From: Lampris incognitus
Lineage: Eukaryota; Chordata; Actinopteri; Lampriformes; Lampridae
Reading direction: 5' to 3'
Length of the DNA stretch: 64,000 nucleotides
Assembly: GCF_029633865.1 (NCBI RefSeq)
Contig: NC_079220.1
Location: forward strand, 60,132,077-60,196,076
A program made the position numbers and the translations under genes. This document shows positions 1 to 58,350 of this stretch, piece after piece. Each line of letters opens with the position of its first letter. The first letter of the stretch is position 1. The notes beneath the pieces were generated by a model, which was not told where the DNA came from, ran no database searches, and saw nothing but the letters and a program-made list of their open reading frames with translations.

Positions 1-101
1 AACCCTGGCCAAAAGATGTAGAAAGAGACCTCCATTAATTTTATCCAAAACTTTCATTTCGAGAAGCTCGGTACTTTCCATCAGAAATGCAATTTCCATC
101 A

Positions 102-782
102 AATTATGCAAACCTAATCCTAACCAAAAGATTCAGAAGACTACACTTTCAGCGGTCATTTCTGTCGTTCTTGGCTTGAAAAATGTTTCTAAGTGTGAGT
201 CCGCCACCCACGATGATGAGCTGCGGTGCTTCTTCCGGAGCATGAAGCAGGTACAGCGAAGTGATTTGATTACAAGCTCTGTGCTTTTGAGGCAGAGTGT
301 GCTCTGAGTGGTAAAAGAAAAAAATTGAGAAAGCCATCAATTACTTTTATTTTAAACCTAACTCTAAAAACATTAACCTGCAATAGCAGTGAATTTCAAT
401 TAAAAAAAAAAAATCACTTATGCTCCAAACACCATCAACAACTTTTCAAGTTTAAATCAGGATAAACGGTGGATAATCTCAAGCTGTGTGCTTTTGAGGC
501 AAGATGCATCCTCTGATTGGTAAAATGGAGAAATCTATCTATTTTATTGAAACATAACTCTAACAACAAACTGCCATAGCAGAGAACTTCAATTTAAAAA
601 AAAAAAAGGTTTATAATGCTCCAAACCTCACCAGCAATTTTTCAAGTTTAACACGGGATAAACTAATCAAAATACAGGACAGTGGCAGATCAGTTGTAAA
701 GAAGAAAAAATATCCAAATTGAACCCATCAATCTCTCCATAACTCTCATATTGGGGTATCGCTGAGCCAGTGCTTGGGCACT
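102..782 (+). repeat. B1 block, HOR-0
   Basis: Non-monomer sequence. Landmarks: GAAAAATGTTTCTAAGTGTG, GCCACCCACGATGATGAGC, TGAAGCAGGTACAG, an A-run, then TTTTCAAGTTTAA..CAGGATAAAC. A ~200-bp part is present twice in tandem (about 270-465 and 480-665): both halves run from CAAGCT.TGTGCTTTTGAGG through an A-run to TTTTTCAAGTTTAA. It is not followed by an inverted monomer, unlike B2-B5. Confidence 0.85.
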
Positions 783-2644
783 GTCCGCCTGAGCAGAAAC
801 ACTTGACACTAAACTCAAACACTGTCAACCGAAACATGTAGCAAGGACCATCCGTTGATTTATTTCCAAAACTTTTACTACGAGAAGCTTGGTTCTTTCC
901 TTCAGGAATGCAATTGGCGTGGTTAGCTTGGCTACTGCGAAGAGTTAGTCTCTATTGCTGTGGTATTCTCTGTGCGATTGTCTGCCTGAGCTGATAAAAC
1001 CCTTACACTAAGCGAAAGATATAGAAAGAGCTTTCAGTTAATTTTATCCAAGACTTTCACTGCGAGAAGCTTGGTACTTTCTGTCAGAAATGCCATTGCC
1101 GTGGTTACCTTGGCTACTGCGAAGAGTTAGTCTCGGTTGCTGTGGTATTCTCTGTGCGATTGTCTGCCTGAGCTGATAAAACCCTTAAACTAAGCGAAAC
1201 ATGGAAGGAGCCGTCCGTTAATTTTATCCAAGACTTTCACTCCGAGAAGCTTGGTACTTTCCATCAGAAATCCGATTGCCGTGGTTAGCCTGGCTACTGC
1301 GAAGAGTTAGTCTCTGTTGCTCTGAGATTGTTTGCCTGAGTAGATAAAACCCTTAACCAATCCCAAACCCTACGTCAACCAAAACATGAAGAAAGTCATC
1401 AGTTAATTTGATCCAAAATTGACTACGAGAATTCGGTACTTTATTTCAAAATTGTCATTTCTGTGTTTAGCTTGGCTACCGCGAAGTGGTAGTCTCTGTC
1501 GCTGTGGGATTGTCTGCCTGAGCAGGTAAAACACTGACCCTAACCCAACCCAAACATGTATGTAGAAAGAACCATCCGTTTATTTTACCCAAAACTATCG
1601 CTGCGACAAGCTCGCTGCTCTCCGTCAGAAATGCCATTGCCGTGGTTGGCTTGGCTACCACCAACACTGTCTGGTACTGTGGTACTTCTATGGGATTATC
1701 CGGCTGAGCAGATAAAACCCTTTCTCTTAAGTGAAACATGTAGAAAGAGTCATCTGTTAATTTCATCCGGAACTATCACTCCGAGAAGCTCGGTACTTTA
1801 CATCAGAAATGACTTTGTTGTGGTTAGTTTGGCTACTATGAAGAGTTAGACTCTGTTGCTGCGGTGTTCTCTGTTTGATTGTCTACCTGAGCTGATAAAA
1901 CACTTACCCTAAGCGAAACATGTAGAAGGAGCCGTCCATTAATTTTATCACAAGATTTTATTCTGAGCAGCTTGGTACATTCCATCTGAAATACCATTAC
2001 CGTGGTTAACTTGTCTATCGAAGTTATTCTCTGTTGCAGTGGTATTCTCTAAGATTTTCTGCTTTAGCAGGTGAAACCCTAACTCTATCCCAACCGAAAC
2101 ATCTAGAAAGAGCAATCCATTAATTTTATCTGAAACTATCACTCCATGTTCAGAAATGTTACTGCGAAGAGGTAGTCGCTGTTGATGTGGTATTGTCTGT
2201 TGTATTGTTTGCCTGAGCAGACAATACTCTTAGCCTAACTCATCCCTAAACGAAAGATGTAGAAAGGGCAATCTGTTAATTTTATCCAAACCTTTCAGTT
2301 GGAAAATCTCAGTATTTCCATCAGAAATGACTGTCATGGATAGCTTGGCTACTGCTAAGAGTTATTCTCTGTTGTCGTATTTTTTTGTGGGATTGTCTGA
2401 CTGAGCAGATAAGCCCTAACCCAAACCTTATCTCAAGTGAAACATGTAGAAAGCTCTCTTTGTTCATTTTATGCAAATCTTTTACTCTGAAAAGCTCAGT
2501 ACTTTCCATCAGAAATGCCATTGCCATGGTTAGCTTGGCTACTGCGACGAGTTGGTGTCTTCCTGTGGTATTCTCTGTAGGATTGTGTGCCAGAGCAGAT
2601 GAAACCCTTACCCTAACCCAAAGATATAGAGCCATCCGTTACGT

Positions 2645-3150
2645 TTAGCCAAACCTAATCCTATTTTCAGGGATAGGTTCTTTAGTTTTATCGTGAGAAA
2701 TGTTTTTCTAAAGTGAGTCCCGCCACCCACGACGATGAGCTGGGGTACTTCTTCCTGAGCGCTAAGCGGGTACAGAGACGTGGTCTGAATGGTAAAAAGG
2801 AAAAAAGTGCAGAAAATCATCAATTTGATCTAAACCTTAGTCTTAACTCTTAAAACATTAAATTGCAATTGCAGAAAAGTTCAATTAAAAAAAAAAACAC
2901 TTGCATTGTTTCAAACCCCACCAACAACTTTTCAAGTTTAAAACGGGATAAAGTAATCAAGATATAAGACAAAGGGAGATCAGTTATAACGAATAAACAC
3001 CCAATTTGCTCCTAGACTTAACCAATCTATCCATATCCCTAATCCTGGGTGTATTTTTAATCCAGCACTTGGGCATTGGCAGAGGTGCTCAGTTGACATG
3101 TGTTGGCTCTGGCATTCAATCCTAACCATAAAGTTAACCTAGTATTTTCA
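2645..3150 (+). repeat. B2 block, HOR-0 (about 85 bp shorter than in other copies)
   Basis: Starts after GAGCCATCCGTTACGTTTAG and ends near AGTTAACCTAGTATTTTC. The part holding GTCACAAGCTC through GGGGCATGTTC, present in the HOR-1 copy, is absent at the junction near 2,785. Confidence 0.85.
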
Positions 3151-3425
3151 ATCTGAAATGCTGTTGCTGTGGTTAGCTTGGCTACTGCCAAGAGTTGGTC
3201 TCTGTTGCTGAGGGGTTTTCTGTGGGATTTGCTGCCTGAGCAGATAAAACCTTTACCCTAATACAAACCCAACCCAAACGTGTTGAAAGAGCCGTCTGTT
3301 AGTTTTATCCAAATCTTGCATACCGAGAAGCTCTGTACTTTCCATCAGAAATGCTATTGTTGGCTTGGCAACCTCCAAGACAGTCTCTGTTGCTATGGTA
3401 TTATTTGTGGGATTAATTCTTAGCA

Positions 3426-3583
3426 GGAGCCAAGCTAACCACGGCAATGGTATTTCTGGTGGAATATTCTGAGTGTTTCGGAGCGTTTGGTTCAGATATA
3501 ATTAGCGGCTGGCTCTTTCTACATGTTTTTGTAAGGGTTGGGATAGGTTTAGTATAAGGGTTTTATCTGCTTAGGCAGACAGT
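3426..3583 (-). repeat. Inverted satellite monomer, HOR-0, after B2
   Basis: Reads GCCAAGCTAACCACGGCAAT, then GGCTCTTTCTACATG, then GGGTTTTATCTGCTTAGGCA: the reverse complement of the monomer. It lies between direct monomers. Confidence 0.9.
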
Positions 3584-6035
3584 CTCTATTGCTGTTGTAT
3601 TTCTGCGGGATTGTCTGCCTGAACAGATAAAACCCTTACCATAAGTGAAACATTTAGAAAGAGCCGTCCATTAATGTTATCCAAAACTGTCACTCCGAGA
3701 AGCTTGGTACTTTCCATCAGGAATGCCATTGCCGTAGTAAGCTTGGGTATGACAAAGAGTTAGTCTCTGTTGCTGTGGTGTTCTCTGTGTGATTGACTGC
3801 CTGAGCTGATAAAACCCTTTACTAACTGAAATATGTTGAGAGAGCCGTTCAGTAATTTTATTCAAAATTTTTACTACGAGTACCTCTAATTTCCATCCTA
3901 AATGCCATTGCTGTGGTTAGCTTGGCTACAATGAAGAGTTAGTCTCTGTTGCTATGGTATTCTCTGTGCGATTATCTGCTTAAACAGGTAACACACTTAC
4001 CCTAACCCAACCAAAACATCTAAGAGCCATCCGTTAATTTTGTCCAAAACTTTCACTCCAAGATGCTCGGTTTTTCCTTCAAAAATGCCATTGCCATGGT
4101 TACCTTGGCTACCACGAAGAGTTAAGTCTCTGTCGCTGTTCTATTTCTGAGGGATTGTCCGCCTAAACAGATAAACCCATTACTCTAAGCGAAACATATA
4201 GAAAGCACTCCGTTTATTTCATCCAAAATTTTTAGTCGAAGGTCGGTTCTTTCCTTCAGAAATGCCATTGCGGTGGTTAGCTTCGCTACTGCGAAGAGTT
4301 GGTCTCTGTTGCTGTGGTATTCTCTGTGCGATTGTCTGCCTGAGCAGATAATGCCCTTACAACTAAGCGAAATGTATAGAAAAAGCCGTCCGGTAATTTT
4401 ATCCAAAACTTTTGCTACGAGTAGCTTGGTACTTTCCATCAGAAATTCCATTTTCGTAGTTAAAATGGCTACAATGAAGAGTTAGTCTCTGTTGCTGTTG
4501 TATTTCTGCGATTGTCTGCTTACACAGGTAACATACTTGCCCTAACCCAACCAAAACATGTAGGAAGAGCCGTCCGTTAATTTTATGCAAAACATTCAGT
4601 CCAAGAAGCTCGGTTCTTTGCTTCAGAAATTCCATTGCCGTGGTTAGCTTGGCTACCACGAAGAGTTGGTCTCTGTTGCTGTTGTATTTCTGAGGGATTG
4701 TCCGCCTAAATGGATAAAACGCTTACACTAAGCGAAATATGTAAAAACGCCGGGCATTAATTTTACCCAAATCTTTCCCTCCAAAAAGCTTGGTACTTTC
4801 CATCAGAAATGCCATTGCTGTGGTTAGCTTGGCTACCACGAAGAGAGTTAGTCTCTGTTGTTGTTGTATTTCTGTGGGTTTGTCCGCCTGAACAGATAAA
4901 ACCCTTACCGTAAGTGAAACATGTAGAAAGAGCCGTCCATTAATTTTATCCAAAACTTAGACTCTGAGAAGCTTGGTACTTTCCATCAGTAATGCCATTG
5001 CTGTGTTGAGCTTGGCAACTACGAAGAGTTAGTCTCTGTTGCTGTGGTGTTCTCTGTGTAATTGTCTGCCTGAGCTGATATAACCCTTACACTAAGCGAA
5101 ATATGTGGAAAGAACTGTCCAGTAATTTTATCCAAAACTTTCACTCCGAGAATCTTGGTACCTTCCCTCAGTAATGACATTGCCTTGGTTTGCTTCGCTA
5201 CCATGAAGAGTTAGTCTCTGTTTCTATTGTGTTTCTGCGGGATTGTCCGACTGAATAGATAAAACCCTTACTATAAGTGAAATATGTAGAATAGCCTTTC
5301 ATTAATTGTATCCAAAACTTTCACTGCAAGAAACTTGGTACGTTCCATCAGGAATGCCATTGCTGTAGTTAGCTTGGCTACTACGAAGAGTTGGTCTCTG
5401 TTGCTGTGGTGTTCTCTGTGTGATTGACTGCCTGAGCTGATAAAACGCTAAGCGAAACATGGAGAAAGAGCCATCCGTTTATTTTACCCAAAACTATTGC
5501 TGCGAGAAGCTTGCTACTCTCCATCAGAAATGCCATTGCCATGGTTGACTTGGCTACCAGCAAGACTGTCTGTTGCTGTGGTATTTCTTTGGGATTATCT
5601 GGCTGAGCAGATAAAACCCTTACTCTTACGTGAAACATGTAGAAAGAGTCGTCTGTTAATTTCATCCGGAACTATCACTCCGAGAAGCTCGGTACTTTCC
5701 ATCAGACATGACTTTGCTGTGGTTTGGCTACTATGAAGAGTTTGTCTCTGTTGGTGTGGTATTTTCTTTGGGATTGTGTGGCTGAGCAGATAAAACCCTT
5801 AACCTAACCCAAATCCTACCTCAAGCGAAATATGTAGAAAGCACTGTCCGTTAATTTTATGCAAAGCTTTTACTCTGAGAAGCTCTCTACTTTCCATCAG
5901 AAATACCATTGCTGTGGTTGGCTTGGCTACTGCGACGAGTTGGTCTCTATTGCTGTGGTATTGTCTGCCAGAGCAGATAAAACTCTTACCCCAACGGTAA
6001 CCGAAAGATATGGAGCCATCCATTGAGTTTATCAA

Positions 6036-6645
6036 AATCTAATACTAAGTTCGGGGATAATTTCTTTAGTTTTTATCTTGAGAAATGTTTTTCTAAAGTG
6101 CGAGTCCCGCCACCCACCATGATGAGCTGGGGTGCTTCTTCCTGAGCGCTAAGCGGGTACAGAGAAGTTGTTTAATCACAAGCTCTGTGCTTTAGATGAC
6201 GTTCAATGTTCCTTTTATGGGAGCATCAAGAGAAGGGGCATGTTCTGAGTGGTAAAAAGGAAAAAAAGTGCAGAAATTCATCAATTTGATCTAACCCTAA
6301 ACCTTACTCTTAACTCTTAAAACATTAAATTGTAATTGCAGAAAAGTTCAATTTGAAAAAAAAACAAAACAAACAAACGACAAACACTTGTATTGTTCCA
6401 AACCCCACCAACAACCTTTCAAGTTTAAAACGGGATAAAGTAATCAAGATATAAGACTGGGAGATCAGTTGTAATGAATAAACACCCAAATTGCCCCCAG
6501 ACTTAACCAATCAAACTCTATCCATATCCCTAACCCGAATCCTGGGGGTATTTCTAATCCAGCACTTGGGCATTGGCGGAGGTGCTCAGTTGACATGTGT
6601 TGGCTCTGGCATTCAATCCTAACCATAAAGTTAACCTAGTATGTT
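6036..6645 (+). repeat. B3 block, HOR-0
   Basis: Full ~610-bp B block: GGGGATAATTTCTTTAG, GAGAAATGTTTTTCTAAAGT, CCCGCCACCCACCATGATGA, an A-run followed by CAAAACAAACAAACGAC, TTTAAAACGGGATAAAG, GGGCATTGGCGGAGGTGCTC and TGTTGGCTCTGGCATTC. Here it already carries several bases typical of B4, so it is a mosaic. Confidence 0.85.
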
Positions 6646-6927
6646 CAGTGTGAAATGCCGGAGCCGTGGTTAGCTTGGCTACCGCGAAGAGTTGGTCTCT
6701 TGCTGTGGGGTTTTCTGTGGGATTTGCTGCCTGAGCAGGTAGAACCTCTACCCTAATACAAACCCCAACCCAAACGTGTTGAAAGAGCCGTCTGTTAATT
6801 GTATCCAAATTTTGCATACCGAGAAGCTCTGTACTTCGCATCAGAAATGCCACTGCAGTGATTAGTTTGGCAACCGCCAAGACGGTCTCTGTTGCTATGG
6901 TATTATTTGTGGGATTAATTCTTAGCA

Positions 6928-7083
6928 GGAGCCAAGCTAACCACGGCAATGGTATTTCTGGTGGAAGATACGGAGTGTTTCGGAGCTTGTGGTTCGGATA
7001 TAATTGGCGGCTGGCTCTTTCTACATGTTTTTGTAAGGGTTGGGATAGGTTTAGTATAAGGGTTTTATCTGCTTAGGCAGACA
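6928..7083 (-). repeat. Inverted satellite monomer, HOR-0, after B3
   Basis: Reverse complement of a monomer starting ~890 bp after the B block start. Its end forms a long hairpin with the next direct monomer (7,059-7,138). Confidence 0.9.
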
Positions 7084-7138
7084 GTCTCTGTTGCTGTTGT
7101 ATTTCTGCGGGATTGTCCGCCTGAACAGATAAAACCCT
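7059..7138. repeat. Hairpin at the junction of an inverted and a direct monomer
   Basis: AGGGTTTTATCTGCTTAGGC on the left pairs with GCCTGAACAGATAAAACCCT on the right with two mismatches, leaving a loop of roughly 35-40 bases. The same structure recurs at the right end of the other inverted monomers after B2, B3 and B4, for example 20,659-20,738, and in weaker form after B5. Confidence 0.82.
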
Positions 7139-8766
7139 TACCATAAGTGAAACATGTAGAAAGACGCGTCCATTAATGTTAACCAAAACTTTCACTCCGA
7201 GAAGCTTGGTACTTTCCATCAGGAATGCCATTGCCGTAGTTAGCTTGGCTACTACAAAGAGTTTTTCTCTGTTGCTGTGGTATGTTCTGTGCAATTGACT
7301 GCCTGAGCTGATAAAACCCTTACAATTAAGCGAAATATGTAGACGGAGTCGTCCATTAATTTCATCCAAAACTATTACTCCATGGCTACTGCGAAGAGTT
7401 TGACTTTGTTGCTCTGGTATTCTCTGTGTGATTGTTTGGCTGATAAAACCCTTACAACTAAGCGAAAAATGTAGAAAGAGCCGTCCATTAATTTTATCTA
7501 AAACGTATACTCTGAGAGGTTTGGTACTTTCCATCAGAAATGCCATTGCCGTGGTTAGCTTGGCTACCACGAAGAGAGTTAGTCTCTGTTGTTGTTGTAT
7601 TTCTGTGGGTTTGTCCGCCTGAACAGATAAAACCCTTACCGTAAGTGAAACATGTAGAAAGAGCCGTCCATTAATTTTATCCAAAACTTAGACTCTGAGA
7701 AGCTTGGTACTTTCCATCAGTAATGCCATTGCTGTGTTGAGCTTGGCAACTACGAAGAGTTAGTCTCTGTTGCTGTGGTGTTCTCTGTGTAATTGTCTGC
7801 CTGAGCTGATATAACCCTTACACTAAGCGAAATATGTGGAAAGAACTGTCCAGTAATTTTATCCAAAACTTTCACTCCGAGAATCTTGGTACCTTCCCTC
7901 AGTAATGACATTGCCTTGGTTTGCTTCGCTACCATGAAGAGTTAGTCTCTGTTTCTATTGTGTTTCTGCGGGATTGTCCGACTGAATAGATAAAACCCTT
8001 ACTATAAGTGAAATATGTAGAATAGCCTTTCATTAATTGTATCCAAAACTTTCACTGCAAGAAACTTGGTACGTTCCATCAGGAATGCCATTGCCGTAGT
8101 TAGCTTGGCTACTACGAAGAGTTGGTCTCTGTTGCTGTGGTGTTCTCTGTGTGATTGACTGCCTGAGCTGATAAAACGCTAAGCGAAACATGTAGAAAGA
8201 GCCATCCGTTTATTTTACCCAAAACTATTGCTGCGAGAAGCTTGCTACTCTCCATCAGAAATGCCATTGCCATGGTTGACTTGGCTACCAGCAAGACTGT
8301 CTGTTGCTGTGGTATTTCTTTGGGATTATCTGGCTGAGCAGATAAAACCCTTACTCTTACGTGAAACATGTAGAAAGAGTCGTCTGTTAATTTCATCCGG
8401 AACTATCACTCCGAGAAGCTCGGTACTTTCCATCAGACATGACTTTGCTGTGGTTTGGCTACTATGAAGAGTTTGTCTCTGTTGGTGTGGTATTTTCTTT
8501 GGGATTGTGTGGCTGAGCAGATAAAACCCTTAACCTAACCCAAATCCTACCTCAAGCGAAATATGTAGAAAGCACTGTCCGTTAATTTTATGCAAAGCTT
8601 TTACTCTGAGAAGCTCTCTACTTTCCATCAGAAATACCATTGCTGTGGTTGGCTTGGCTACTGCGACGAGTTGGTCTCTATTGCTGTGGTATTGTCTGCC
8701 AGAGCAGATAAAACTCTTACCCCAACCGTAACCGAAAGATATGGAGCCATCCATTGAGTTTATCAA

Positions 8767-9376
8767 AATCTAATACTAAGTTCGGGGATAATTTCTTTAG
8801 TTTTTATCTTGAGAAATGTTTTTCTAAAGTGCGAGTCCCGCCACCCACCATGATGAGCTGGGGTGCTTCTTCCTGAGCGCTAAGCGGGTACAGAGAAGTT
8901 GTTTAATCACAAGCTCTGTGCTTTAGATGACGTTCAATGTTCCTTTTATGGGAGCATCAAGAGAAGGGGCATGTTCTGAGTGGTAAAAAGGAAAAAAAGT
9001 GCAGAAATTCATCAATTTGATCTAACCCTAAACCTTACTCTTAACTCTTAAAACATTAAATTGTAATTGCAGAAAAGTTCAATTTGAAAAAAAAACAAAA
9101 CAAACAAACGACAAACACTTGTATTGTTCCAAACCCCACCAACAACCTTTCAAGTTTAAAACGGGATAAAGTAATCAAGATATAAGACTGGGAGATCAGT
9201 TGTAATGAATAAACACCCAAATTGCCCCCAGACTTAACCAATCAAACTCTATCCATATCCCTAACCCGAATCCTGGGGGTATTTCTAATCCAGCACTTGG
9301 GCATTGGCGGAGGTGCTCAGTTGACATGTGTTGGCTCTGGCATTCAATCCTAACCATAAAGTTAACCTAGTATGTT
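8767..9376 (+). repeat. B4 block, HOR-0
   Basis: Essentially the same sequence as the B3 block 2,731 bp to the left, as part of the HOR-0 duplication. Confidence 0.85.
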
Positions 9377-9658
9377 CAGTGTGAAATGCCGGAGCCGTGG
9401 TTAGCTTGGCTACCGCGAAGAGTTGGTCTCTTGCTGTGGGGTTTTCTGTGGGATTTGCTGCCTGAGCAGGTAGAACCTCTACCCTAATACAAACCCCAAC
9501 CCAAACGTGTTGAAAGAGCCGTCTGTTAATTGTATCCAAATTTTGCATACCGAGAAGCTCTGTACTTCGCATCAGAAATGCCACTGCAGTGATTAGTTTG
9601 GCAACCGCCAAGACGGTCTCTGTTGCTATGGTATTATTTGTGGGATTAATTCTTAGCA

Positions 9659-9813
9659 GGAGCCAAGCTAACCACGGCAATGGTATTTCTGGTGGAAGAT
9701 ACGGAGTGTTTCGGAGCTTGTGGTTCGGATATAATTGGCGGCTGGCTCTTTCTACATGTTTTTGTAAGGGTTGGGATAGGTTTAGTATAAGGGTTTTATC
9801 TGCTTAGGCAGAC
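9659..9813 (-). repeat. Inverted satellite monomer, HOR-0, after B4
   Basis: Copy of the inverted monomer at 6,928 within the 2,731-bp duplication. Confidence 0.9.
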
Positions 9814-11671
9814 ACTCTGTTGCTGTTGTATTTCTGCGGGATTGTCCGCCTGAACAGATAAAACCCTTACCATAAGTGAAACATGTAGAAAGACGCGTCC
9901 ATTAATGTTAACCAAAACTTTCACTCCGAGAAGCTTGGTACTTTCCATCAGGAATGCCATTGCCGTAGTTAGCTTGGCTACTACAAAGAGTTTTTCTCTG
10001 TTGCTGTGGTATGTTCTGTGCAATTGACTGCCTGAGCTGATAAAACCCTTACAATTAAGCGAAATATGTAGACGGAGTCGTCCATTAATTTCATCCAAAA
10101 CTATTACTCCATGGCTACTGCGAAGAGTTTGACTTTGTTGCTCTGGTATTCTCTGTGTGATTGTTTGGCTGATAAAACCCTTACAACTAAGCGAAAAATG
10201 TAGAAAGAGCCGTCCATTAATTTTATCTAAAACGTATACTCTGAGAGGTTTGGTACTTTCCATCAGAAATGCCATTGCCGTGGTTAGCTTGGCTACCACG
10301 AAGAGTTGGTCTCTGTTGCTATTGTAATATCTGCGGGATTGTCCGCCTGAACAGATAAAATCCTTACTATAAATGAAACATTTAGAAAGAGCCGTCCATT
10401 AATGTTATCCAAAACTTTCACTCCGAGAAGCTTGGTAATTTCCATCAGTAATGCCATTTGCTGTAGTTAGCTTGGCTACTACGAAGAGTTAGTCTCTGTT
10501 GCTGTGGTATTCTCTGTGCGATTGTCTGCCTGAGTTGATAAAACCCTTACGCTAAGTGAAACATGTAGAAACAGCCTCCGTGACATTTTTTTCCGAAACT
10601 GTCAATCAGAAAGTCGGTACTTGAGAAGAGCAGTGCCATTGCTGTATTTAGCTTGGTTACGATGAAGTTAGTCTCTGTTGCTGTGGGATTGTCTGCCTGA
10701 GCAGGTAAAACACTTATGCTAACTAAAACGAAACGTTGTAGAAAGAGCTTGCGTCAGTAAGATCCAAAACTGTCACTCCGAGAAGCTGGGTACTTTCCAT
10801 CAGAAATGCCATTGCCGTGGCGAGCTTTGCTACTGCGAAGGGTTAGTCTCTGTTGCTGTGAGATAGTTTTCATGAGCTGATAAAACCCTCAACCAAAACA
10901 TGAAGAAAGTCAGTTAGTTTGATCTAAAATTTCGAGTACGAATAAGTCGGTACTTAATTTCTGAATTTTCCTTGCTGTGTTTAGCTTGGCTACCGTGAAG
11001 TGTTAGTCTTTGTTGCTTTGATATTCTGTGTGGGATTGTCTGCCTGAGCAGGTAAAACAATTACCCTAAACCAACCGAAACGTAGAAAGAGCCATCCGTT
11101 TATTTTACCCAAAACTATCGCTGCGAGAAGCTTGCTACTCTCCATCAGAAATGCCATTGCCATGGTTGGCTTGGCTACCACCAAGACTGTCTGTTGCTGT
11201 GGTATTTCTTTGGGATTATCTCGCTGAGCAGATAAAATCCTTACTCTTACGTGAAACATGTAGAAAGAGTCGTCTGTTAATTTCATCCGGAACTATCACT
11301 CCGAGAAGCTCGGTACTTTCCATCAGAAATGACTTTGCTGTGGTTAGTTAGGCTACTCTGAAGAGTTAGTCTCTGTTGGTGTGGTATTTTCTTTGGGTTT
11401 GTGTGGCTGAGCAGATAAAACCCTTAACCTAACCCAAATCCTACCTCAAGCAAACATGTAGAAAGCGCTGTCCGTTAATTTTATGCGAAACTTTTACTCT
11501 GAGAAGCTCTCTACTTTCCATCAGAAATACCATTGTCGTGGTTAGCTTGGCTCCTGCGACGAGTTGGTCTCTATTGCTGTGGTATTGTCTGTAGGATTGT
11601 CTGCCAGAGCATATAAAACTCTTACCCCAACCGTAACCGAAAGGTATAGAGCCATCCATTGAGTTTATCAA

Positions 11672-40365: not shown

Positions 40366-41046
40366 AATTATGCAAACCTAATCCTAACCAAAAGATTCAG
40401 AAGACTACACTTTCAGCGGTCATTTCTGTCGTTCTTGGCTTGAAAAATGTTTCTAAGTGTGAGTCCGCCACCCACGATGATGCGCTGCGGTGCTTCTTCC
40501 TGAGCATGAAGCAGGTACAGCGAAGTGATTTGATTACAAGCTCTGTGCTTTTGAGGCAGAGTGTGCTCTGAGTGGTAAAAGAAAAAAATTGAGAAAGCCA
40601 TCAATTACTTTTATTTTAAACCTAACTCTAAAAACATTAACCTGCAATAGCAGTGAATTTCAATTAAAAAAAAAATCACTTATGCTCCAAACCCCATCAA
40701 GAACTTTTCAAGTTTAAATCAGGATAAACGGTGGATAATCTCAAGCTGTGTGCTTTTGAGGCAAGATGCATCCTCTGATTGGTAAAATGGAGAAATCTAT
40801 CTATTTTATTGAAACATAACTCTAATAACAAACTGCCATAGCAGAGAACTTCAATTTTAAAAAAAAAAGGTTTATAATGCTCCAAACCTCACCAGCAATT
40901 TTTCAAGTTTAACACGGGATAAACTAATCAAAATACAGGACAGTGGCAGATCAGTTGTAAAGAAGAAAAAAATATCCAAATTGAACCCATCAATCTCTCC
41001 ATAACTCTCATATTGGGGTATCGCTGAGCCAGTGCTTGGGCACTGT
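40366..41046 (+). repeat. B1 block, HOR-3
   Basis: Matches HOR-2, with the internal duplication present. Confidence 0.88.
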
Positions 41047-42910
41047 CCGCCTGAGCAGAAACACTTGACACTAAACTCAAACACTATGTCAACCGAAACA
41101 TGTAGCAAGGACCATCCGTTGATTTATTTCCAAAACTTTTACTACGAGAAGCTTGGTTCTTTCCTTCAGGAATGCAATTGGCGTGGTTAGCTTGGCTACT
41201 GCGACGAGTTGGTCTCTATTGCTGTGGTATTCTCTGTGCGATTGTCTGCCTGAGCTGATAAAACTCTTACCATAAGTGAAACATGTAGAAAGAGCCTTCC
41301 ATTAATTTTATCCAAAACTTTCACTCCGAGAAGCTTGGTACTTTCCATCAGAAATGCCATTGCTGTGGTTAGTTTGGCTACTGCGAAGATTTGGTCTCTG
41401 TTGCTGTGGTATTCTCTGTGCGATTGTCTGCCTGAGCTGATAAAACCCTTAAACTAAGCGAAACATGGAAGGAGCCGTCCGTTAATTTTATCCAAGACTT
41501 TCACTCCGAGAAGCTTGGTACTTTCCATCAGAAATCCGATTGCCGTGGTTAGCCTGGCTACTGCGAAGAGTTAGTCTCTGTTGCTCTGAGATTGTTTGCC
41601 TGAGTAGATAAAACCCTTAACCAATCCCAAACCCTACGTCAACCAAAACATGAAGAAAGTCATCAGTTAATTTGATCCAAAATTGACTACGAGAATTCGG
41701 TACTTTATTTCAAAATTGTCATTTCTGTGTTTAGCTTGGCTACCGCGAAGTGGTAGTCTCTGTCGCTGTGGGATTGTCTGCCTGAGCAGGTAAAACACTG
41801 ACCCTAACCCAACCCAAACATGTATGTAGAAAGAACCATCCGTTTATTTTACCCAAAACTATCGCAGCGACAAGCTCACTGCTCTCCGTCAGAAATGCCA
41901 TTGCCGTGGTTGGCTTGGCTACCACGAACACTGTCTGGTACTGTGGTACTTCTATGGGATTATCCGGCTGAGCAGATAAAACCCTTTCTCTTAAGTGAAA
42001 CATGTAGAAAGAGTCATCTGTTAATTTCATCCGGAACTATCACTCCGAGAAGCTCGGTACTTTACATCAGAAATGACATTGTTGTGGTTAGTTTGGCTAC
42101 TATGAAGAGTTAGACTCTGTTGCTGTGGTGTTCTCTGTTTGATTGTCTACCTGAGCTGATAAAACACTTACCCTAAGCGAAACATGTAGAAGGAGCCGTC
42201 CATTAATTTTATTACAAGATTTTATTCTGAGCAGCTTGGTACATTCCATCTGAAATACCATTACCGTGGTTAGCTTGTCTATCGAAGTTATTCTCTGTTG
42301 CAGTGGTATTCTCTGTAAGATTTTCTGCTTTAGCAGGTGAAACCCTAACCCTATCCCAACCGAAACATCTAGAAAGAGCAATCCATTAATTTTATCTGAA
42401 ACTATCACTCCATGTTCAGAAATGTTACTGCGAAGAGGTAGTCGCTGTTGATGTGGTATTGTCTGTTGTATTGTTTGCCTGAGCAGACAATACTCTTAGC
42501 CTAACTCATCCCTAAACGAAAGATGTAGAAAGGGCAATCTGTTAATTTTATCCAAACCTTTCAGTTGGAAAATCTCAGTATTTCCATCAGAAATGACTGT
42601 CATGGATAGCTTGGCTACTGCTAAGAGTTATTCTCTGTTGTCGTATTTTTTTGTGGGATTGTCTGACTGAGCAGATAAGCCCTAACCCAAACCTTATCTC
42701 AAGTGAAACATGTAGAAAGCTCTCTTTGTTCATTTTATGCAAATCTTTTACTCTGAAAAGCTCAGTACTTTCCATCAGAAATGCCATTGCCATGGTTAGC
42801 TTGGCTACTGCGACGAGTTGGTGTCTTCCTGTGGTATTCTCTGTAGGATTGTGTGCCAGAGCAGATGAAACCCTTACCCTAACCCAAAGATATAGAGCCA
42901 TGCGTTACGT

Positions 42911-43496
42911 TTAGCCAAACCTAATCCTATTATCAGGGATAGGTTCTTTAGTTTTATCGTGAGAAATGTTTTTCTAAAGTGAGTCCTGCCACCCACGACG
43001 ATGAGCTGGGGTACTTCTTCCTGAGCGCTAAGCGGGTACAGAGACGTGGTTTAGTCACAAGCTCTATGCTTTAGATGATGTTCAATGTTCCTTTCATGGG
43101 AGCATCAAGAGAAGGGGCATGTTCTGAATGGTAAAACGGAAAAAAGTGCAGAAAATCATCAATTTGATCTAAACCTTAGTCTTAACTCTTAAAACATTAA
43201 ATTGCAATTGCAGAAAAGTTCAATTAAAAAAAAAAACAAACAAAAAACACTTGCATTGTTTCAAACCCCACCAACAACTTTTCAAGTTTAAAACGGGATA
43301 AAGTAATCAAGATATAAGACAAAGGGAGATCAGTTATAACGAATAAACACCCAATTTGCTCCTAGACTTAACCAATCTATCCATATCCCTAATCCTGGGT
43401 GTATTTCTAATCCAGCACTTGGGCATTGGCAGAGGTGCTCAGTTGACATGTGTTGGCTCTGGCATTCAATCCTAACCATAAAGTTAACCTAGTATT
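42911..43496 (+). repeat. B2 block, HOR-3
   Basis: Matches HOR-2 except TATTATCAGGG for TATTTTCAGGG near 42,930. Confidence 0.88.
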
Positions 43497-43775
43497 TTCA
43501 ATCTGAAATGCTGTTGCTGTGGTTAGCTTGGCTACTGCCAAGAGTTGGTCTCTGTTGCTGAGGGGTTTTCTGTGGGATTTGCTGCCTGAGCAGATAAAAC
43601 CTTTACCCTAATACAAACCCAACTCAAACGTGTTGAAAGAGCCGTCTGTTAGTTTTATCCAAATCTTGCATACCGAGAAGCTCTGTACTTTCCATCAGAA
43701 ATGCTATTGTTGGCTTGGCAACCTCCAAGACAGTCTCTGTTGCTATGGTATTATTTGTGGGATTAATTCTTAGCA

Positions 43776-43931
43776 GGAGCCAAGCTAACCACGGCAATGG
43801 TATTTCTGGTGGAATATTCTGAGTGTTTCGGAGCGTTTGGTTCAGATATAATTAGCGGCTGGCTCTTTCTACATGTTTTTGTAAGGGTTGGGATAGGTTT
43901 AGTATAAGGGTTTTATCTGCTTAGGCAGACA
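43776..43931 (-). repeat. Inverted satellite monomer, HOR-3, after B2
   Basis: Matches the HOR-2 copy. Confidence 0.9.
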
Positions 43932-46900
43932 GTCTCTATTGCTGTTGTATTTCTGCGGGATTGTCTGCCTGAACAGATAAAACCCTTACCATAAGTGAAA
44001 CATTTAGAAAGAGCCGTCCATTAATGTTATCCAAAACTGTCACTCCGAGAAGCTTGGTACTTTCCATCAGGAATGCCATTGCCGTAGTTAGCTTGGGTAC
44101 GACAAAGAGTTAGTCTCTGTTGCTGTGGTGTTCTCTGTGTGATTGACTGCCTGAGCTGATAAAACCCTTATACTAACTGAAATATGTTGAGAGAGCCGTT
44201 CAGTAATTTTATTCAAAATTTTTACTACGAGTACCTCTAATTTCCATCATAAATGCCATTGCTGTGGTTAGCTTGGCTACAATGAAGAGTTAGTCTCTGT
44301 TGCTATGGTATTCTCTGTGCGATTATCTGCTTAAACAGGTAACACACTTGCCCTAACCCAACCAAAACATCTAAGAGCCATCCGTTAATTTTGTCCAAAA
44401 CTCTCACTCCAAGATGCTCGGTTTTTCCTTCAAAAATGCCATTGCCATGGTTACCTTGGCTACCACGAAGAGTTAAGTCTCTGTCGCTGTTCTATTTCTG
44501 AGGGATTGTCCGCCTAAACAGATAAACCCATTACTCTAAGCGAAACATATAGAAAGCACTCCGTTTATTTCATCCAAAATTTTCAGTCGAAGGTCGGTTC
44601 TTTCCTTAAGAAATGCCATTGCGGTGGTTAGCTTCGCTACTGCAAAGAGTTGGTCTCTGTTGCTGTGGTATTCTCTGTGCGATTGTCTGCCTGAGCAGAT
44701 AATGCCCTTACAACTAAGCGAAATATATAGAAAAAGCCGTCCAGTAATTTTATCCAAAACTTTTACTACGAGTAGCTTGGTACTTTCCATCAGAAATTCC
44801 ATTTTCGTAGTTAGCTTGGCTACAATGAAGAGTTAGTCTCTGTTGCTGTTGTATTTCTGCGATTGTCTGCTTACACAGGTAACATACTTGACCTAACCCA
44901 ACCAAAACATGTAGGAAGAGCCGTCCGTTAATTTTATGCAAAACATTCAGCCCAAGAAGCTCGGTTCTTTGCTTCAGAAATTCCATTGCCGTGGTTAGCT
45001 TGGCTACCACGAAGAGTTGGTCTCTGTTGCTGTTGTATTTCTGAGGGATTGTCCGCCTAAATGGATAAAACGCTTACACTAAGCGAAATATGTAAAAACG
45101 CCGGGCATTAATTTTACCCAAATCTTTCCCTCCAAAAAGCTTGGTACTTTCCATCAGAAATGCCATTGCTGTGGTTAGCTTGGCTACCACGAAGAGAGTT
45201 AGTCTCTGTTGTTGTTGTTGTATTTCTGTGGGTTTGTCCGCCTGAACAGATAAAACCCTTACCGTAAGTGAAACATGTAGAAAGAGCCGTCCATTAATGT
45301 TATACAAAACTTTCACTCCGAGAAGCTTGGTACTTTCCATCAGGAATGCCATTGCTGTAGTTAGCTTGGCTACTACGAAGAGTTAGTCTCTGTTGCTGTG
45401 GTGTTCTCTGTGCGATTGTCTGCCTGAGCTGATAAAAACCCTTATACTATGCGACACATGTAGAAAGAGCTGTCCAGTAATTTTATCCAAAGCTTTCACT
45501 CCGAGAATCTTGGTACTTTTCTTCAGTAATGCCATTGTCCTGGATTGCTTGGCTACCACAAAGAGTTAGTCTCTGTTGCTGTTGTATTTCTGCGCGATTG
45601 TCCGACTGAACAGATAAAACCCTTACCATAAGTGAAACATGAAGAAAGAGCCGTCCAATAATGTTATCCAAAACTTTCACTTCGAGAAGCTTGGTACTTC
45701 CCATCAGGAATGCCATTTCCGTAGTAAGCCTGGCTACTACGAAGATTTAGTCTCTGTTGCTGTGGTGTTCTCTGTGCGATTGACTGCCTGAGCTGATAAA
45801 ACACGAATGCTAAGCGAAACATGTACAAAGAGCTGTCCATTGACGTTATCCAAAACTTTCACTCCGAGAAGCTTGGTACTTTCCATCCGAAATGCCATTC
45901 CTATGGTTAGCTTGGCTACTGCGAAGAGTTGGTGTCTGTTGCTATGGTATTCTCTGTGCGATTGACTGCCTGAGCTGATGAAACCCTTACGCTAAGCGAA
46001 ACATGTAGAAAGAGGCGTTCATTAATTTTATCCAAAACTTAGACTCTGAGAAGCTTGGTACTTTCCATCAGTAATGCCATTGCTGTGTTGAGCTTGGCAA
46101 CTACGAAGAGTTAGTCTCTGTTGCTGTGGTGTTCTCTGTGTAATTGTCTGCCTAAGCTGATATAACCCTTACACTAAGCGAAATATGTGGAAAGAACTGT
46201 CCAGTAATTTTATCCAAAACTTTCACTCCGAGAATCTTGGTACCTTCCCTCAGTAATGACATTGCCTTGGTTTGCTTCGCTACCATGAAGAGTTAGTCTC
46301 TGTTTCTATTGTGTTTCTGCGGGATTGTCCGACTGAATAGATAAAACCCTTACTATAAGTGAAATATGTAGAATAGCCTTTCATTAATTGTATCCAAAAC
46401 TTTCACTGCAAGAAACTTGGTACGTTCCATCAGGAATGCCATTGCCGTAGTTAGCTTGGCTACTACGAAGAGTTAGTCTCTGTTGCTGTGGTGTTCTCTG
46501 TGTGATTGACTGCCTGAGCTGATAAAACGCTAAGCGAAACATGTAGAAAGAGCCATCCGTTTATTTTACCCAAAACTATTGCTGCGAGAAGCTTGCTACT
46601 CTCCATCAGAAATGCCATTGCCATGGTTGACTTGGCTACCAGCAAGACTGTCTGTTGCTGTGGTATTTCTTTGGGATTATCTGGCTGAGCAGATAAAACC
46701 CTTACTCTTACGTGAAACATGTAGAAAGAGTCGTCTGTTAATTTCATCCGGAACTATCACTCCGAGAAGCTCGGTACTTTCCATCAGACATGACTTTGCT
46801 GTGGTTAGTTTGGCTACTATGAAGAGTTTGTCTCTGTTGGTGTGGTATTTTCTTTGGGATTGTGTGGCTGAGCAGATAAAACCCTTAACCTAACCCAAAT

Positions 46901-47121
46901 CCTACCTCAAGCGAAACATGTAGAAAGCACTGTCCGTTAATTTTATGCAAAGCTTTTACTCTGAGAAGCTCTCTACTTTCCATCAGAAATACCATTGCTG
47001 TGGTTGGCTTGGCTACTGCGACGAGTTGGTCTCTATTGCTGTGGTATTGTCTGCCAGAGCAGATAAAACTCTTACCCCAACCGTAACCGAAAGATATGGA
47101 GCCATCCATTGAGTTTATCAA

Positions 47122-47731
47122 AATCTAATACTAAGTTCGGGGATAATTTCTTTAGTTTTTATCTTGAGAAATGTTTTTCTAAAGTGCGAGTCCCGCCACC
47201 CACCATGATGAGCTGGGGTGCTTCTTCCTGAGCGCTAAGCGGGTACAGAGAAGTTGTTTAATCACAAGCTCTGTGCTTTAGATGACGTTCAATGTTCCTT
47301 TTATGGGAGCATCAAGAGAAGGGGCATGTTCTGAGTGGTAAAAAGGAAAAAAAGTGCAGAAATTCATCAATTTGATCTAACCCTAAACCTTACTCTTAAC
47401 TCTTAAAACATTAAATTGTAATTGCAGAAAAGTTCAATTTGAAAAAAAAACAAAACAAACAAACGACAAACACTTGTATTGTTCCAAACCCCACCAACAA
47501 CCTTTCAAGTTTAAAACGGGATAAAGTAATCAAGATATAAGACTGGGAGATCAGTTGTAATGAATAAACACCCAAATTGCCCCCAGACTTAACCAATCAA
47601 ACTCTATCCATATCCCTAACCCGAATCCTGGGGGTATTTCTAATCCAGCACTTGGGCATTGGCGGAGGTGCTCAGTTGACATGTGTTGGCTCTGGCATTC
47701 AATCCTAACCATAAAGTTAACCTAGTATGTT
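47122..47731 (+). repeat. B3-position block, HOR-3, carrying B4-type bases
   Basis: Stands in the B3 position but has AGTTTTTATC near 47,155 and CATTCAATCC near 47,697, the B4 states. The markers just upstream (CCCCAACCGTAACC near 47,078) are B3. Confidence 0.85.
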
Positions 47732-48015
47732 CAGTGTGAAATGCCGGAGCCGTGGTTAGCTTGGCTACCGCGAAGAGTTGGTCTCTTGCTGTGGGGTTTT
47801 CTGTGGGATTTGCTGCCTGAGCAGGTAGAACCTCTACCCTAATACAAACCCCAACCCAAACGTGTTGAAAGAGCCGTCTGTTAATTGTATCCAAATTTTG
47901 CATACCGAGAAGCTCTGTACTTCGCATCAGAAATGCCACTGCAGTGATTAGTTTGGCAACCGCCAAGACGGTCTCTGTTGCTATGGTATTATTTGTGGGA
48001 TTAATTCTTAGCAGG

Positions 48016-48168
48016 AGCCAAGCTAACCACGGCAATGGTATTTCTGGTGGAAGATACGGAGTGTTTCGGAGCTTGTGGTTCGGATATAATTGGCGGCTGG
48101 CTCTTTCTACATGTTTTTGTAAGGGTTGGGATAGGTTTAGTATAAGGGTTTTATCTGCTTAGGCAGAC
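48016..48168 (-). repeat. Inverted satellite monomer, HOR-3, after the B3-position block
   Basis: Ends with the B4-type junction GCAGACACTCTG. It lies inside the suspected conversion tract. Confidence 0.9.
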
Positions 48169-49996
48169 ACTCTGTTGCTGTTGTATTTCTGCGGGATTGT
48201 CCGCCTGAACAGATAAAACCCTTACCATAAGTGAAACATGTAGAAAGACGCGTCCATTAATGTTAACCAAAACTTTCACTCCGAGAAGCTTGGTACTTTC
48301 CATCAGGAATGCCATTGCCGTAGTTAGCTTGGCTACTACAAAGAGTTTTTCTCTGTTGCTGTGGTATGTTCTGTGCAATTGACTGCCTGAGCTGATAAAA
48401 CCCTTACAATTAAGCGAAATATGTAGACGGAGTCGTCCATTAATTTCATCCAAAACTATTACTCCATGGCTACTGCGAAGAGTTTGACTTTGTTGCTCTG
48501 GTATTCTCTGTGTGATTGTTTGGCTGATAAAACCCTTACAACTAAGCGAAAAATGTAGAAAGAGCCGTCCATTAATTTTATCTAAAACGTATACTCTGAG
48601 AGGTTTGGTACTTTCCATCAGAAATGCCATTGCCGTGGTTAGCTTGGCTACCACGAAGAGTTGGTCTCTGTTGCTGTTGTAATATCTGCGGGATTGTCCG
48701 CCTGAACAGATAAAATCCTTACTATAAATGAAACATTTAGAAAGAGCCGTCCATTAATGTTATCCAAAACTTTCACTCCGAGAAGCTTGGTAATTTCCAT
48801 CAGTAATGCCATTTGCTGTAGTTAGCTTGGCTACTACGAAGAGTTAGTCTCTGTTGCTGTGGTATTCTCTGTGCGATTGTTTGCCTGAGCTGATAAAACC
48901 CTTACGCTAAGTGAAACATGTAGAAACAGCCTCCGTGACATTTTTTTTCCGAAACTGTCACTCAGAAAGTCGGTACTTGAGAAGAGCAGTGCCATTGCTG
49001 TATTTAGCTTGGTTACGATGAAGTTAGTCTCTGTTGCTGTGGGATTGTCTGCCTGAGCGGGTAAAACACTTATGCTAACTAAAACGAAACGTTGTAGAAA
49101 GAGCTTACGTCAGTAAGATCCAAAACTGTCACTCCGAGAAGCTGGGTACTTTCCATCAGAAATGCCATTGCCGTGGCGAGCTTTGCTACTACGAAGGGTT
49201 AGTCTCTGTTGCTGTGAGTTTTCCTGAGCTGATAAAACCCTCAACCAAAACATGAAGAAAGTCAGTTAGTTTGATCTAAAATTTCGAGTACGAATAAGTC
49301 GGTACTTAATTTCTGAATTTTCCTTGCTGTGTTTAGCTTGGCTACCGTGAAGTGTTAGTCTCTGTTGCTGTGCTATTTTGTGTGGGATTGTCTGCCTGAG
49401 CAGGTAAAGCACTTACACTAAACCAACTGAAACATGTAGAAAGAGCCATCCGTTTATTTTAGCCAAAGCTATCGCTGTGAGAAGCTTGCTACTCTCCATC
49501 AGAAATGCCATTGGCTACCACCAAGACTGTCTGTTGCTGTGGTATTTTTTGGGGTTATCTGGCTGAGCAGATAAAACCCTTACTCTTACGTGAAACATGT
49601 AGAAAGAGTCGTTTGTTAATTTCATCCGGAACTATCACTCCGAGAAGCTCGGTACTTAACATCAGAAATGACTTTGCTGTGGTTAGTTTGGCTACTATGA
49701 ACAGTTTGTCTCTGTTACTGTAGTGTTTTCTTTGGGATTGTGTGGCTAAGCAGATAAAACCCTTACCCTAACCCAAATCCTACCTCAAGCGAAATATATA
49801 GAAAGTGCTGTCCGTTAATTTTATGCAAAGCTTTTACTCTGAGAAGCTCTCTACTTTCCATCAGAAATACCATTGCCGTGGTTAGCTTGGCTACTGCGAC
49901 GAGTTGGTCTCTATTGCTGTGGTATTGTCTGCCAGAGCAGATAAAACTCTTACCCCAACCGTAACCGAAAGATATAGAGCCATCCATTGCGTTTAT

Positions 49997-51085
49997 CAAA
50001 GCCTAATACTAATTTCAGAGATAATTTCTTTAGTTTTTATCTTGAGAAATGTTTTTCTAAAGTGCGAGTCCCGCCACCCACCATGATGAGCTGGGGTGCT
50101 TCTTCCTGAGCGCTAAGCGGGTACAGAGAAGTTGTTTAATCACAAGCTCTGTGCTTTAGATGACATTCAATGTTCCTTTTATGGGAGCATCAAGAGAAGG
50201 GGCATGTTCTGAGTGGTAAAAAGGAAAAAAAGTGCAGAAATTCATCAATTTGATCTAACCCTAAACCTTACTCTTAACTCTTAAAACATTAAATTGTAAT
50301 TGCAGAAAAGTTCAATTTGGAAAAAGAAACAAAACAAACAAACGACAAACACTTGTATTGTTCCAAACCCCACCAACAACTTTTCAAGTTTAAAACGGGA
50401 TAAAGAAATCAAGATATAAGACTGGGAGGTCAGTTGTAATGAATAAACACCCAAATTGCCCCCAGACTTAACCAATCAAACTCTATCCATATCCCTAACC
50501 CGAATCCTGGGGGTATTTCTAATCCAGCACTTGGGCATTGGCGGAGGTGCTCAGTTGACATGTGTTGGCTCTGGCATTCAACCCTAACCATAAAGTTAAC
50601 CTAGTATGTTCAGTGTGAAATGCAGGTACAGAGAAGTGGTTTAATCACTCACTCTGTGCTTTTGGTGACCGTTCAGTGTTGCTTTTATGGAGTTATCAAG
50701 AGGAAGGAGCCTGTTCGGTGTGGTAAAAAGGAGGGGTAAAAATGTAGAAATTCATCAATTTTATTTAAACCTACCCCTAAAACTTAGTCCAAACCCTAAA
50801 AACATGACGATTGTAGAAGTGCAATCCAATAAAAGAAACCCACTTGTACTACTGCAAACCCCACCAACAACTTTTCAAGTTTAAAACGGGATAAACTAAT
50901 CAAGAGGGAAGACAATGGGGGATCAAGTGTAAAGAATAAACAACCTCCAAATAGATCCTATACCCAATCCATCAAACTCTCTCCAAATTCGTAACCCTAA
51001 ACCTGGGGGTATCTGTAAGCCAGTATTTGGGCATTGTTGAGGCGCCTGGTTGACATGTGTTGGCTCTGGCATTCAATTCTAACCC
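49997..51085 (+). repeat. B4/B5 hybrid block, HOR-3
   Basis: Starts as a B4 block through its whole length to GTTCAGTGTGAAATGC. It then continues as the middle and end of a B5 block (CAGGTACAGAGAAGTGG..TTTTGGTGACCGTTC) from 50,622, giving one block of ~1.09 kb. The ~2.4 kb normally between these points is absent. More substitutions than in other copies: it lies where homogenisation fades. Confidence 0.88.
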
Positions 51086-51387
51086 TTACCTTTCACTCGG
51101 AGAAGCCTAGTATCTCCCATCAAAAATGCCATTGCCATGGTTGGCGTGGCTAACATGAAGAGTTAAAATCTGTTGCTGTGGGATTTTCTGCCCGAGCAGG
51201 TAAAACCTTTACCTTAACACAAACCCTACCCTTACGTGTTGAAAGAGCCGTATGTTGATTTTTATCCAAACCTTTCACACCGAGAAGCTCTGTACTTTCC
51301 ATCAGAAATGCCATTGCAATGGTTAGCTTGGCAACTGCCAAGACAGTCTCTGTTGCTATGGTATTCTTTGTGGGATTAATTCTTAGC

Positions 51388-51539
51388 AGAAGTCAAGCTA
51401 ACCACGACAATGGTATTTGATGGAAAATAATGTCACGGAGCTTAAGGTTTGGATATAATTAACGGATGGCTCTTTCTACATCTTTCTGTAAGGGTTGGGA
51501 TAGGTTTAGTATAAGAGTTTTATCTGCTCAGGCAGACAG
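51388..51539 (-). repeat. Inverted satellite monomer, HOR-3, after the hybrid block
   Basis: B5-type inverted monomer kept on the right of the 2.4-kb deletion. It has several private substitutions (AACCACGACAATGG). Confidence 0.88.
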
Positions 51540-51654
51540 TGTCTGCTGCTGTGGTATTCTCTGTGGAACTACTTTTGAGTAGGAAAAACCCTCATTGTAA
51601 CCCTACGCCAACCCTGGCCAAAAGATGTAGGAAGAGACGGCCATTAATTTTATC

Positions 51655-57740: not shown

Positions 57741-57830
57741 GTATACCCACCAGCAACAAGCTCCCCTCACTACACATACCCAAATAGTGCCCAAACAAAT
57801 TTTAACAAAAATACTTTGGGGGGACATTTT

Positions 57831-58348: not shown

Positions 58349-58350
<2 letters not shown>

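Follow-up and report, generated by a model that had tools for sequence, protein, structure and literature searches.

The window analysed here, the whole 64,000-bp stretch C13:60,132,077–60,196,076 of the 1.48-Gb Lampris incognitus assembly (contig NC_079220.1, referred to as C13), is occupied for most of its length by a tandem satellite whose monomers are grouped into cassettes and, at a further level, into a unit of 13,743 bp. An earlier interpretation made from the letters alone (the sequence-only reading) took 13,743 bp to be the higher-order repeat (HOR) period of this satellite and proposed CENP-A chromatin immunoprecipitation (ChIP) to place it. The question raised by the locus is what kind of array this is. 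With good confidence, we regard it as a subtelomeric composite satellite, in which arrays of a 182-bp monomer are combined with ∼600-bp elements bearing U3 small nucleolar RNA (snoRNA) sequence and local copying has most recently given rise to the 13.7-kb unit.

Position and orientation of the array

C13 is 60,220,590 bp in total, and the window stops 24.5 kb before the contig end, of which at least the last 8.5 kb is filled by the telomeric repeat (TTAGGG)n. A map made with a monomer hidden Markov model (HMM) revealed that the satellite domain reaches ∼57.7 kb distally and, in the other direction, extends for no less than 40 kb before the first base of the window, beyond the limits of 1 and 51609 that had been assigned to it. 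The mapped array lies ∼31–128 kb from the (TTAGGG)n-made end, and 10,000-base N stretches (exact size) are present in both ends of C13.

A genome search with the distal flank of the array (58640–59840) gave matches on 16 chromosome-sized contigs, at 24 ends in all, in a single piece at 22 ends and in two pieces each at C17 right and C11 left. The strand of these matches was + at 12/12 right ends and − at 12/12 left ends, i.e. in mirror orientation; outside this count, the flank was also matched on C2 and on the unplaced contig C42. The other 12 of the 40 hits were restricted to query positions within 9–579 at 86–88% identity and resembled a dispersed repeat. The main distal pieces of the window were colinear with the left end of C13, as a mirror match of 98.2–98.6% identity.

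The array itself displayed the same polarity. All near-full monomers of C13 were on the + strand at the right end (345/345) and on the − strand at the left end (170/170). A genome search with a phase-marker query (12779–13610) gave 979 candidates at first look, of which the best 40 were scored as full-length copies; 40/40 lay within ∼212 kb of a contig end, on the + strand in 16/16 cases at right ends and on the − strand in 19/19 at left ends, with three further copies on C42 and two on C2. The ratio of CCCTAA to TTAGGG in the satellite domain of C13 was 151:0 in the right arm and 0:90 in the left, against a first-order Markov expectation on the right side of ∼39 and ∼15, respectively. From these one-sided counts, the linker motif is on the strand opposite the telomeric TTAGGG at either end of C13. 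Rotated forms of the hexamer were less polar in the right arm (CTAACC 144 versus GGTTAG 169; AACCCT 322 versus AGGGTT 52).

The block is common to several non-homologous ends, and its orientation to the telomere is fixed at 24/24 ends and for 35/35 phase markers on oriented ends, C2 not being counted. Given that the distal flank is shared in mirror orientation by 24 ends, the array is a subtelomeric satellite or duplicon and not a centromeric HOR. The centromeric placement implied by the proposed CENP-A ChIP is therefore abandoned; for a subtelomeric array that always faces the telomere in the same way, that experiment is the wrong test. Sampling of ends on the 17 chromosome-sized contigs with established lengths revealed telomere repeats at the terminus of 6/14 right ends (C3, C6, C9, C10, C12, and C13) and 2/17 left ends (C21 and C25), with N at three left ends (C6, C13, and C27). 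So few reach telomere repeats that many chromosome ends must be incomplete in the assembly.

Several other features of these regions were recorded. Positions 58687–59840 of the window carry what we take to be LINE-like remnants of fish-like appearance, and query bases 1 to ∼570 of the distal flank recur at interior sites with 86–88% identity. Pure microsatellites occur at 58351–58431 (GT, 40.5 units) and 61648–61698 (TA, 25.5 units). No Pfam family was found for 5 of the 25 listed open reading frames, and no tRNA was detected in the accompanying content check. A COX1 profile had no match in the assembly. The left end of C13 carries a 1,147-bp tandem repeat (41086–52471; stretches L020 and L021; 9.9 copies at 99%) and, farther out, several CCCTAA tracts in duplicated segments 4.3–20.5 kb apart. 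At the right end of C1 (154.94–154.99 Mb), interstitial TTAGGG tracts are present, the first three starts being 7.1 and 7.2 kb apart and later ones ∼14 and ∼16 kb apart among the matches listed, which hints at another subtelomeric unit.

The 13,743-bp unit and the spacing of its marker

The marker AACCCTGGCCAAAAGATG was found at positions 1, 12779, 26522, 40265, and 51610, on the + strand only, and the best autocorrelation lag of the window was 13,743 (0.588), followed by 27,486 (0.434). The exact recurrence at five positions with two consecutive intervals of 13,743 bp, as originally noticed, is thus borne out. The four stretches so delimited (Table 1) are not equivalent. Copies 2 and 3 differ at 5 of 13,743 sites; they are flanked by the older, rearranged copy 1 and the truncated copy 4, which has 44 mismatches and a different tail. 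At the four of the five differing sites where copy 4 could be compared, it has the state of copy 3 at three and that of copy 2 at one. Only two full-length copies are near identical, which corrects the sequence-only reading.

Each unit contains 37 near-full monomers. Mean pairwise identity among monomers within a unit was 79.6%, and monomers compared in register between units were 99.4–100% identical in 37/37 pairs. Divergent monomers inside a unit and near identity in register are the pattern of a HOR; a HOR is, however, one unit homogenised over many copies, and here there are two.

Over the scored copies, the phase marker was spaced by 3.8–30.9 kb. The spacings were 23,851, 12,778, 13,743, and 13,743 bp at C13 right; 10,784 and 18,216 at C27 left; 30,897 at C3 left; 17,273 at C6 right; 3,956–5,524 at C9 left; 10,340 and 3,965 at C14 left; 11,697 at C14 right; 20,735 at C25 right; 3,778 at C10 right; 3,969 and 10,321 on C42; and 12,440 on C2. 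Nine ends (C3 right, C5, C11 right, C12, C13 left, C17, C21, C25 left, and C26) had one scored copy each. Since 13,743 bp occurs at one end among the scored markers and other spacings occur elsewhere, it is a local recent tandem duplication and not, as had been supposed, the general HOR period of the satellite.

It could be argued that the tandem is an assembly artefact, in which collapsed or duplicated reads have multiplied a single real unit. Two units with so few differences would be expected in that case, and the same spacing was seen at no other end among the 40 scored markers. The five substitutions, together with a fourth unit that has its own tail and shares states with both neighbours, nevertheless fit stepwise duplication, and the phase marker is also repeated, at other spacings, on C27, C6, C9, and C14. 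An artefact is accordingly considered unlikely, if deserving of some weight.

Material appears to have moved between ends. A 2-kb piece of C27 left was 99.2–99.3% identical to the window, and 2 kb of C6 right was 92% identical. Together with the mirror match of the two ends of C13, these identities support recent exchange between chromosome ends, for which unequal crossing-over or break-induced replication may have been the route.

The cassette and its U3-derived element

Among 173 full forward monomers, the commonest start-to-start distance was 182 bp (32 intervals), followed by 183 bp (23 intervals). The monomer satellite is real, with a commonest spacing slightly above the 180 bp first given. 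Cassettes that had been reported to restart at 19,051, 21,945, and 24,822 were recovered by the monomer HMM, with matching starts at 19,052, 21,946, and 24,824 and long offset alignments that were 81–89% identical.

The monomer arrays are interrupted about every 1.2–4.6 kb by an element of ∼600 bp, with a degenerate copy of U3 snoRNA close to its start. Spacers of >150 bp between monomer matches numbered 55 in the C13 ends read, including 22 in the window, and 53 of the 55 belong to one sequence family. With the Rfam model RF00012, the window yielded 20 matches to U3 snoRNA, all on the + strand, at 60.8–112.5 bits compared with a gathering score of 34. These occupy 20/22 window spacers; no U3 match was obtained with this model in spacers 2617–3114 and 56294–56548. 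From 140 kb taken at the two ends of C13 (14 of the 19 stretches of 4.5–10 kb that had been fetched), 23 further matches were obtained. All U3 matches in the window and the C13 ends span model positions 1–219 and lie on the same strand as the array. The composite three-level build proposed earlier (monomer, cassette with a second sequence class and inverted units, and 13.7-kb unit) is therefore real, except that the second class is U3 snoRNA-derived and not a new satellite sequence.

Inverted monomers, also noted earlier, were found repeatedly. In 230 kb searched at both C13 ends (N stretches included), there were 35 long inverted pieces, of which 31 had the same limits in the monomer model, from 1 or 9 to 117 or 118. 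At C13 right, an inverted piece lay 628–660 bp downstream of 19 of 32 U3 copies. The simplest reading is that a single inversion event was copied along with the cassette.

A genome-wide search gave 8,272 U3 candidates, of which the best 63 were scored. Ten of these, in the interior of C6 and C26, reached 146–166 bits and are probably true U3 genes (C26:28.519–28.531 Mb, C26:10.473–10.494 Mb, and C6:3.559 Mb). Other interior copies scored 113.9, 119.6, and 53.6 bits, and one further copy was on the unplaced contig C527. The remaining 49 belonged to subtelomeric blocks; two of them were on C42, three on C2, and 44 at oriented ends, where every copy had the expected direction. The terminal copy of the window has its best score, and like copies adjoin the shared flank at other ends. 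In the eight aligned gene copies of C26, CAGAGTGGT and not CTGAGTGGT is present near the 3′ end, at what is presumably the position of box D; the C6 gene differs from them there.

The satellite copies were distinct from these genes in several respects. The motif TGATGA, at a site that we take to be box C, was present in 0/43 satellite copies and 10/10 genes. This recount, like that of the tail, took in all 43 copies and all 10 genes and strengthened the case for pseudogenes; a separate comparison, with 20 of the 25 full-length copies that were unique and with 9 of the 10 genes, had the same outcome. When seven satellite copies were aligned with five genes, no similarity was seen by eye upstream of the U3 start, so that the copies seem to lack gene-like upstream sequence, and an A-rich tail followed the 3′ end in the satellite copies only. 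In the 17 nt directly downstream of the 3′ end, A made up 64% on average in 33 unique satellite copies and 12–29% in the 10 genes. The 25 unique full-length copies diverged by 16.6–24.5% from the nearest gene, and 6/8 unique shortened copies start with AAGACTACAC. One of the 43 copies (L013:202–327, 37.6 bits) was left out of the divergence, A-tail, and target-site counts. The upstream flank of the copies matched the monomer beyond 100 shuffles in 24/33 cases, and the downstream flank in 8/33.

Similarity to the genes is limited to the transcript and is followed by an A-rich 3′ tail, as in a retroposed pseudogene. Given the loss of box C, the apparent absence of gene-like upstream sequence, and the A-rich tail, the satellite copies look like dead retroposed pseudogenes that have been carried and co-amplified with the satellite, and no RNA function is proposed for them.

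Alternatively, the ∼600-bp element might be a SINE-like retrotransposon, headed by U3-derived sequence and inserted repeatedly into the satellite. Its organisation (a U3 head, an A-rich stretch, and a second A-rich stretch farther on) and the single family that embraces nearly all spacers would agree with this. On the other hand, all 42 listed matches to a 602-bp form of the element (best 40 of 713 candidates scored) were near contig ends, and the shared downstream inversion fits one insertion followed by copying. Repeated insertion is thus improbable, to much the same degree as an assembly artefact.

Table 1. Features of the window, with window coordinates and the basis of each assignment
Feature	Position	Strand	Basis
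Subtelomeric satellite domain, right arm of C13	1..57736	+	monomer HMM map
Unit copy 1, older, rearranged, partial	1..12778	+	main in-order pieces 93–98% to copy 2
Unit copy 2, 13,743 bp	12779..26521	+	marker and alignment
Unit copy 3, 13,743 bp	26522..40264	+	5 differences vs copy 2
Unit copy 4, truncated	40265..51609	+	10,361 aligned columns, 99.5% to copy 2
Distal array part, 182-bp monomers outside 13.7-kb units	52168..57736	+	monomer HMM
Distal subtelomeric duplicon	57737..64000	+	tested 58640–59840 common to 24 ends
Putative U3 pseudogene, internally deleted type	137..312	+	RF00012, 61.6 bits
Putative U3 pseudogene	6036..6253	+	RF00012, 95.7 bits
Putative U3 pseudogene	8767..8984	+	RF00012, 95.7 bits
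Putative U3 pseudogene	11677..11892	+	RF00012, 68.0 bits
Putative U3 pseudogene, internally deleted type, starts AAGACTACAC	12915..13090	+	RF00012, 60.8 bits
Putative U3 pseudogene	15435..15646	+	RF00012, 77.0 bits
Putative U3 pseudogene	19636..19853	+	RF00012, 93.4 bits
Putative U3 pseudogene	22511..22728	+	RF00012, 95.7 bits
Putative U3 pseudogene	25421..25636	+	RF00012, 68.0 bits
Putative U3 pseudogene, internally deleted type	26658..26833	+	RF00012, 60.8 bits
Putative U3 pseudogene	29178..29389	+	RF00012, 75.9 bits
Putative U3 pseudogene	33379..33596	+	RF00012, 93.4 bits
Putative U3 pseudogene	36254..36471	+	RF00012, 95.7 bits
Putative U3 pseudogene	39164..39379	+	RF00012, 68.0 bits
Putative U3 pseudogene, internally deleted type	40401..40576	+	RF00012, 60.8 bits
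Putative U3 pseudogene	42921..43132	+	RF00012, 73.1 bits
Putative U3 pseudogene	47122..47339	+	RF00012, 95.7 bits
Putative U3 pseudogene	49999..50217	+	RF00012, 90.0 bits
Putative U3 pseudogene, internally deleted type	51667..51843	+	RF00012, 66.8 bits
Putative terminal U3 pseudogene	56943..57157	+	RF00012, 112.5 bits
Inverted monomer segment of cassette	3411..3586	-	monomer HMM
Inverted monomer segment of cassette	6913..7088	-	monomer HMM
Inverted monomer segment of cassette	9644..9817	-	monomer HMM
Inverted monomer segment of cassette	12542..12709	-	monomer HMM
Inverted monomer segment of cassette	16275..16450	-	monomer HMM
Inverted monomer segment of cassette	20513..20688	-	monomer HMM
Inverted monomer segment of cassette	23388..23561	-	monomer HMM
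Inverted monomer segment of cassette	26285..26452	-	monomer HMM
Inverted monomer segment of cassette	30018..30193	-	monomer HMM
Inverted monomer segment of cassette	34256..34431	-	monomer HMM
Inverted monomer segment of cassette	37131..37304	-	monomer HMM
Inverted monomer segment of cassette	40028..40195	-	monomer HMM
Inverted monomer segment of cassette	43761..43936	-	monomer HMM
Inverted monomer segment of cassette	47999..48172	-	monomer HMM
Inverted monomer segment of cassette	51373..51540	-	monomer HMM

Proposed origin of the satellite and comparable known systems

The following minimal scheme can be proposed. A U3 transcript would have been reverse-transcribed into or beside a monomer, and a neighbouring monomer would have been hit once by inversion. 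Unequal crossing-over, gene conversion, or break-induced replication may then have multiplied the resulting cassette, both within a chromosome end and from one end to another, with the 13.7-kb unit as the most recent local product. Many chromosome ends carry copies of the distal flank and of parts of the array, with a fixed orientation, and the 13,743-bp period, at one end among the scored copies, consists of two near-identical units between a truncated and an older rearranged one.

Several observations weigh against this interpretation. C2 carries the block near its left end in the wrong, right-end orientation: at ∼189–252 kb of this 152-Mb contig, satellite sequence is accompanied by the distal flank and a short tract of TTAGGG, as would result from a piece of scaffold placed in reverse or from a genuine inversion or fusion. 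The genome searches scored the best candidates only, so that lower-scoring copies in the chromosome interior may have escaped them, and the 13,743-bp tandem and its copy number are as given by the assembly. Target-site duplications looked good by eye and were weak under shuffling, with both flanks beyond shuffles and a monomer overlap of at least 8 positions in 4/33 copies. Finally, divergence was lower in the U3 part than in the tail (mean p-distance 0.101 versus 0.169), which could mean constraint, and there was no step in diversity at the U3 3′ end along 20 copies. As there is no sharp boundary at this point, selection on the U3 part is not claimed.

A very unlikely variant is that the U3-bearing satellite is used: array transcripts containing U3-like portions could draw chromosome ends to the nucleolus, and the telomere could invade the oriented CCCTAA linkers, thereby aiding end-to-end exchange. 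Still less probable is a subtelomeric array of working U3 genes. Model scores well over the gathering score and the lower divergence of the U3 part would suit such an array, but TGATGA is missing from every satellite copy and present in every gene, the upstream sequence is unlike that of genes in the copies aligned, and the ten interior copies score 146–166 bits; it was rejected on the loss of box C and the absence of gene-like upstream sequence. A centromeric higher-order satellite, favoured by the near-nucleosomal length of the monomer and by the genuine HOR pattern within the array, is the least probable alternative and was rejected on location, given the proximity of the array to the (TTAGGG)n contig end and the listed monomer, U3-element, and marker matches, which adjoin contig ends with end-specific strand.

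The composite subtelomeric satellite illustrates that a chromosome-end satellite can assemble from dissimilar components (a monomer of nucleosome size, a U3 snoRNA retrocopy, and an inversion that happened once), and that its cassette is then disseminated to numerous chromosome ends, at each of which a separate local unit is amplified. A warning follows for non-coding RNA annotation, which can list numerous false U3 genes in genomes of this kind.

Each of the classes involved is already known: subtelomeric satellites, HORs, duplicons, and retroposed snoRNA pseudogenes. Among the matches listed, a satellite with a U3 pseudogene in most spacers was not found in the open-access literature, nor were three exact monomer strings found there. 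Within that literature, what appears new is the joining of these classes in one array.

In primate α-satellite HORs, monomers are divergent within a unit and units are near identical in register. The present array shares this pattern and differs in its location, its composite cassettes, and its two full near-identical units only. Human subtelomeric duplicons are blocks common to many ends with internal TTAGGG-like tracts and copies that vary in divergence and layout (PMC2323237). The block studied here resembles them in all these respects, but much of it is a long composite 182-bp satellite with putative U3 pseudogenes. Tandem satellites confined to or clustered at chromosome ends are also represented, in plants and fishes, by khipu of Phaseolus (PMC3797529) and by CharSat01-52, amplified in Characidium gomesi, CharSat arrays being at times interspersed or inverted (PMC8210747). 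The unit described here is, by contrast, multi-level, and the parts of those two papers used here mention no snoRNA-derived component. A parallel to the retroposed element is provided by the SINE-derived satellites of reptiles, in which tandem repeats are tied to a retroposed RNA-derived element (PMC10702118); in Lampris, the source is U3 snoRNA, set in an existing satellite and not itself the monomer.

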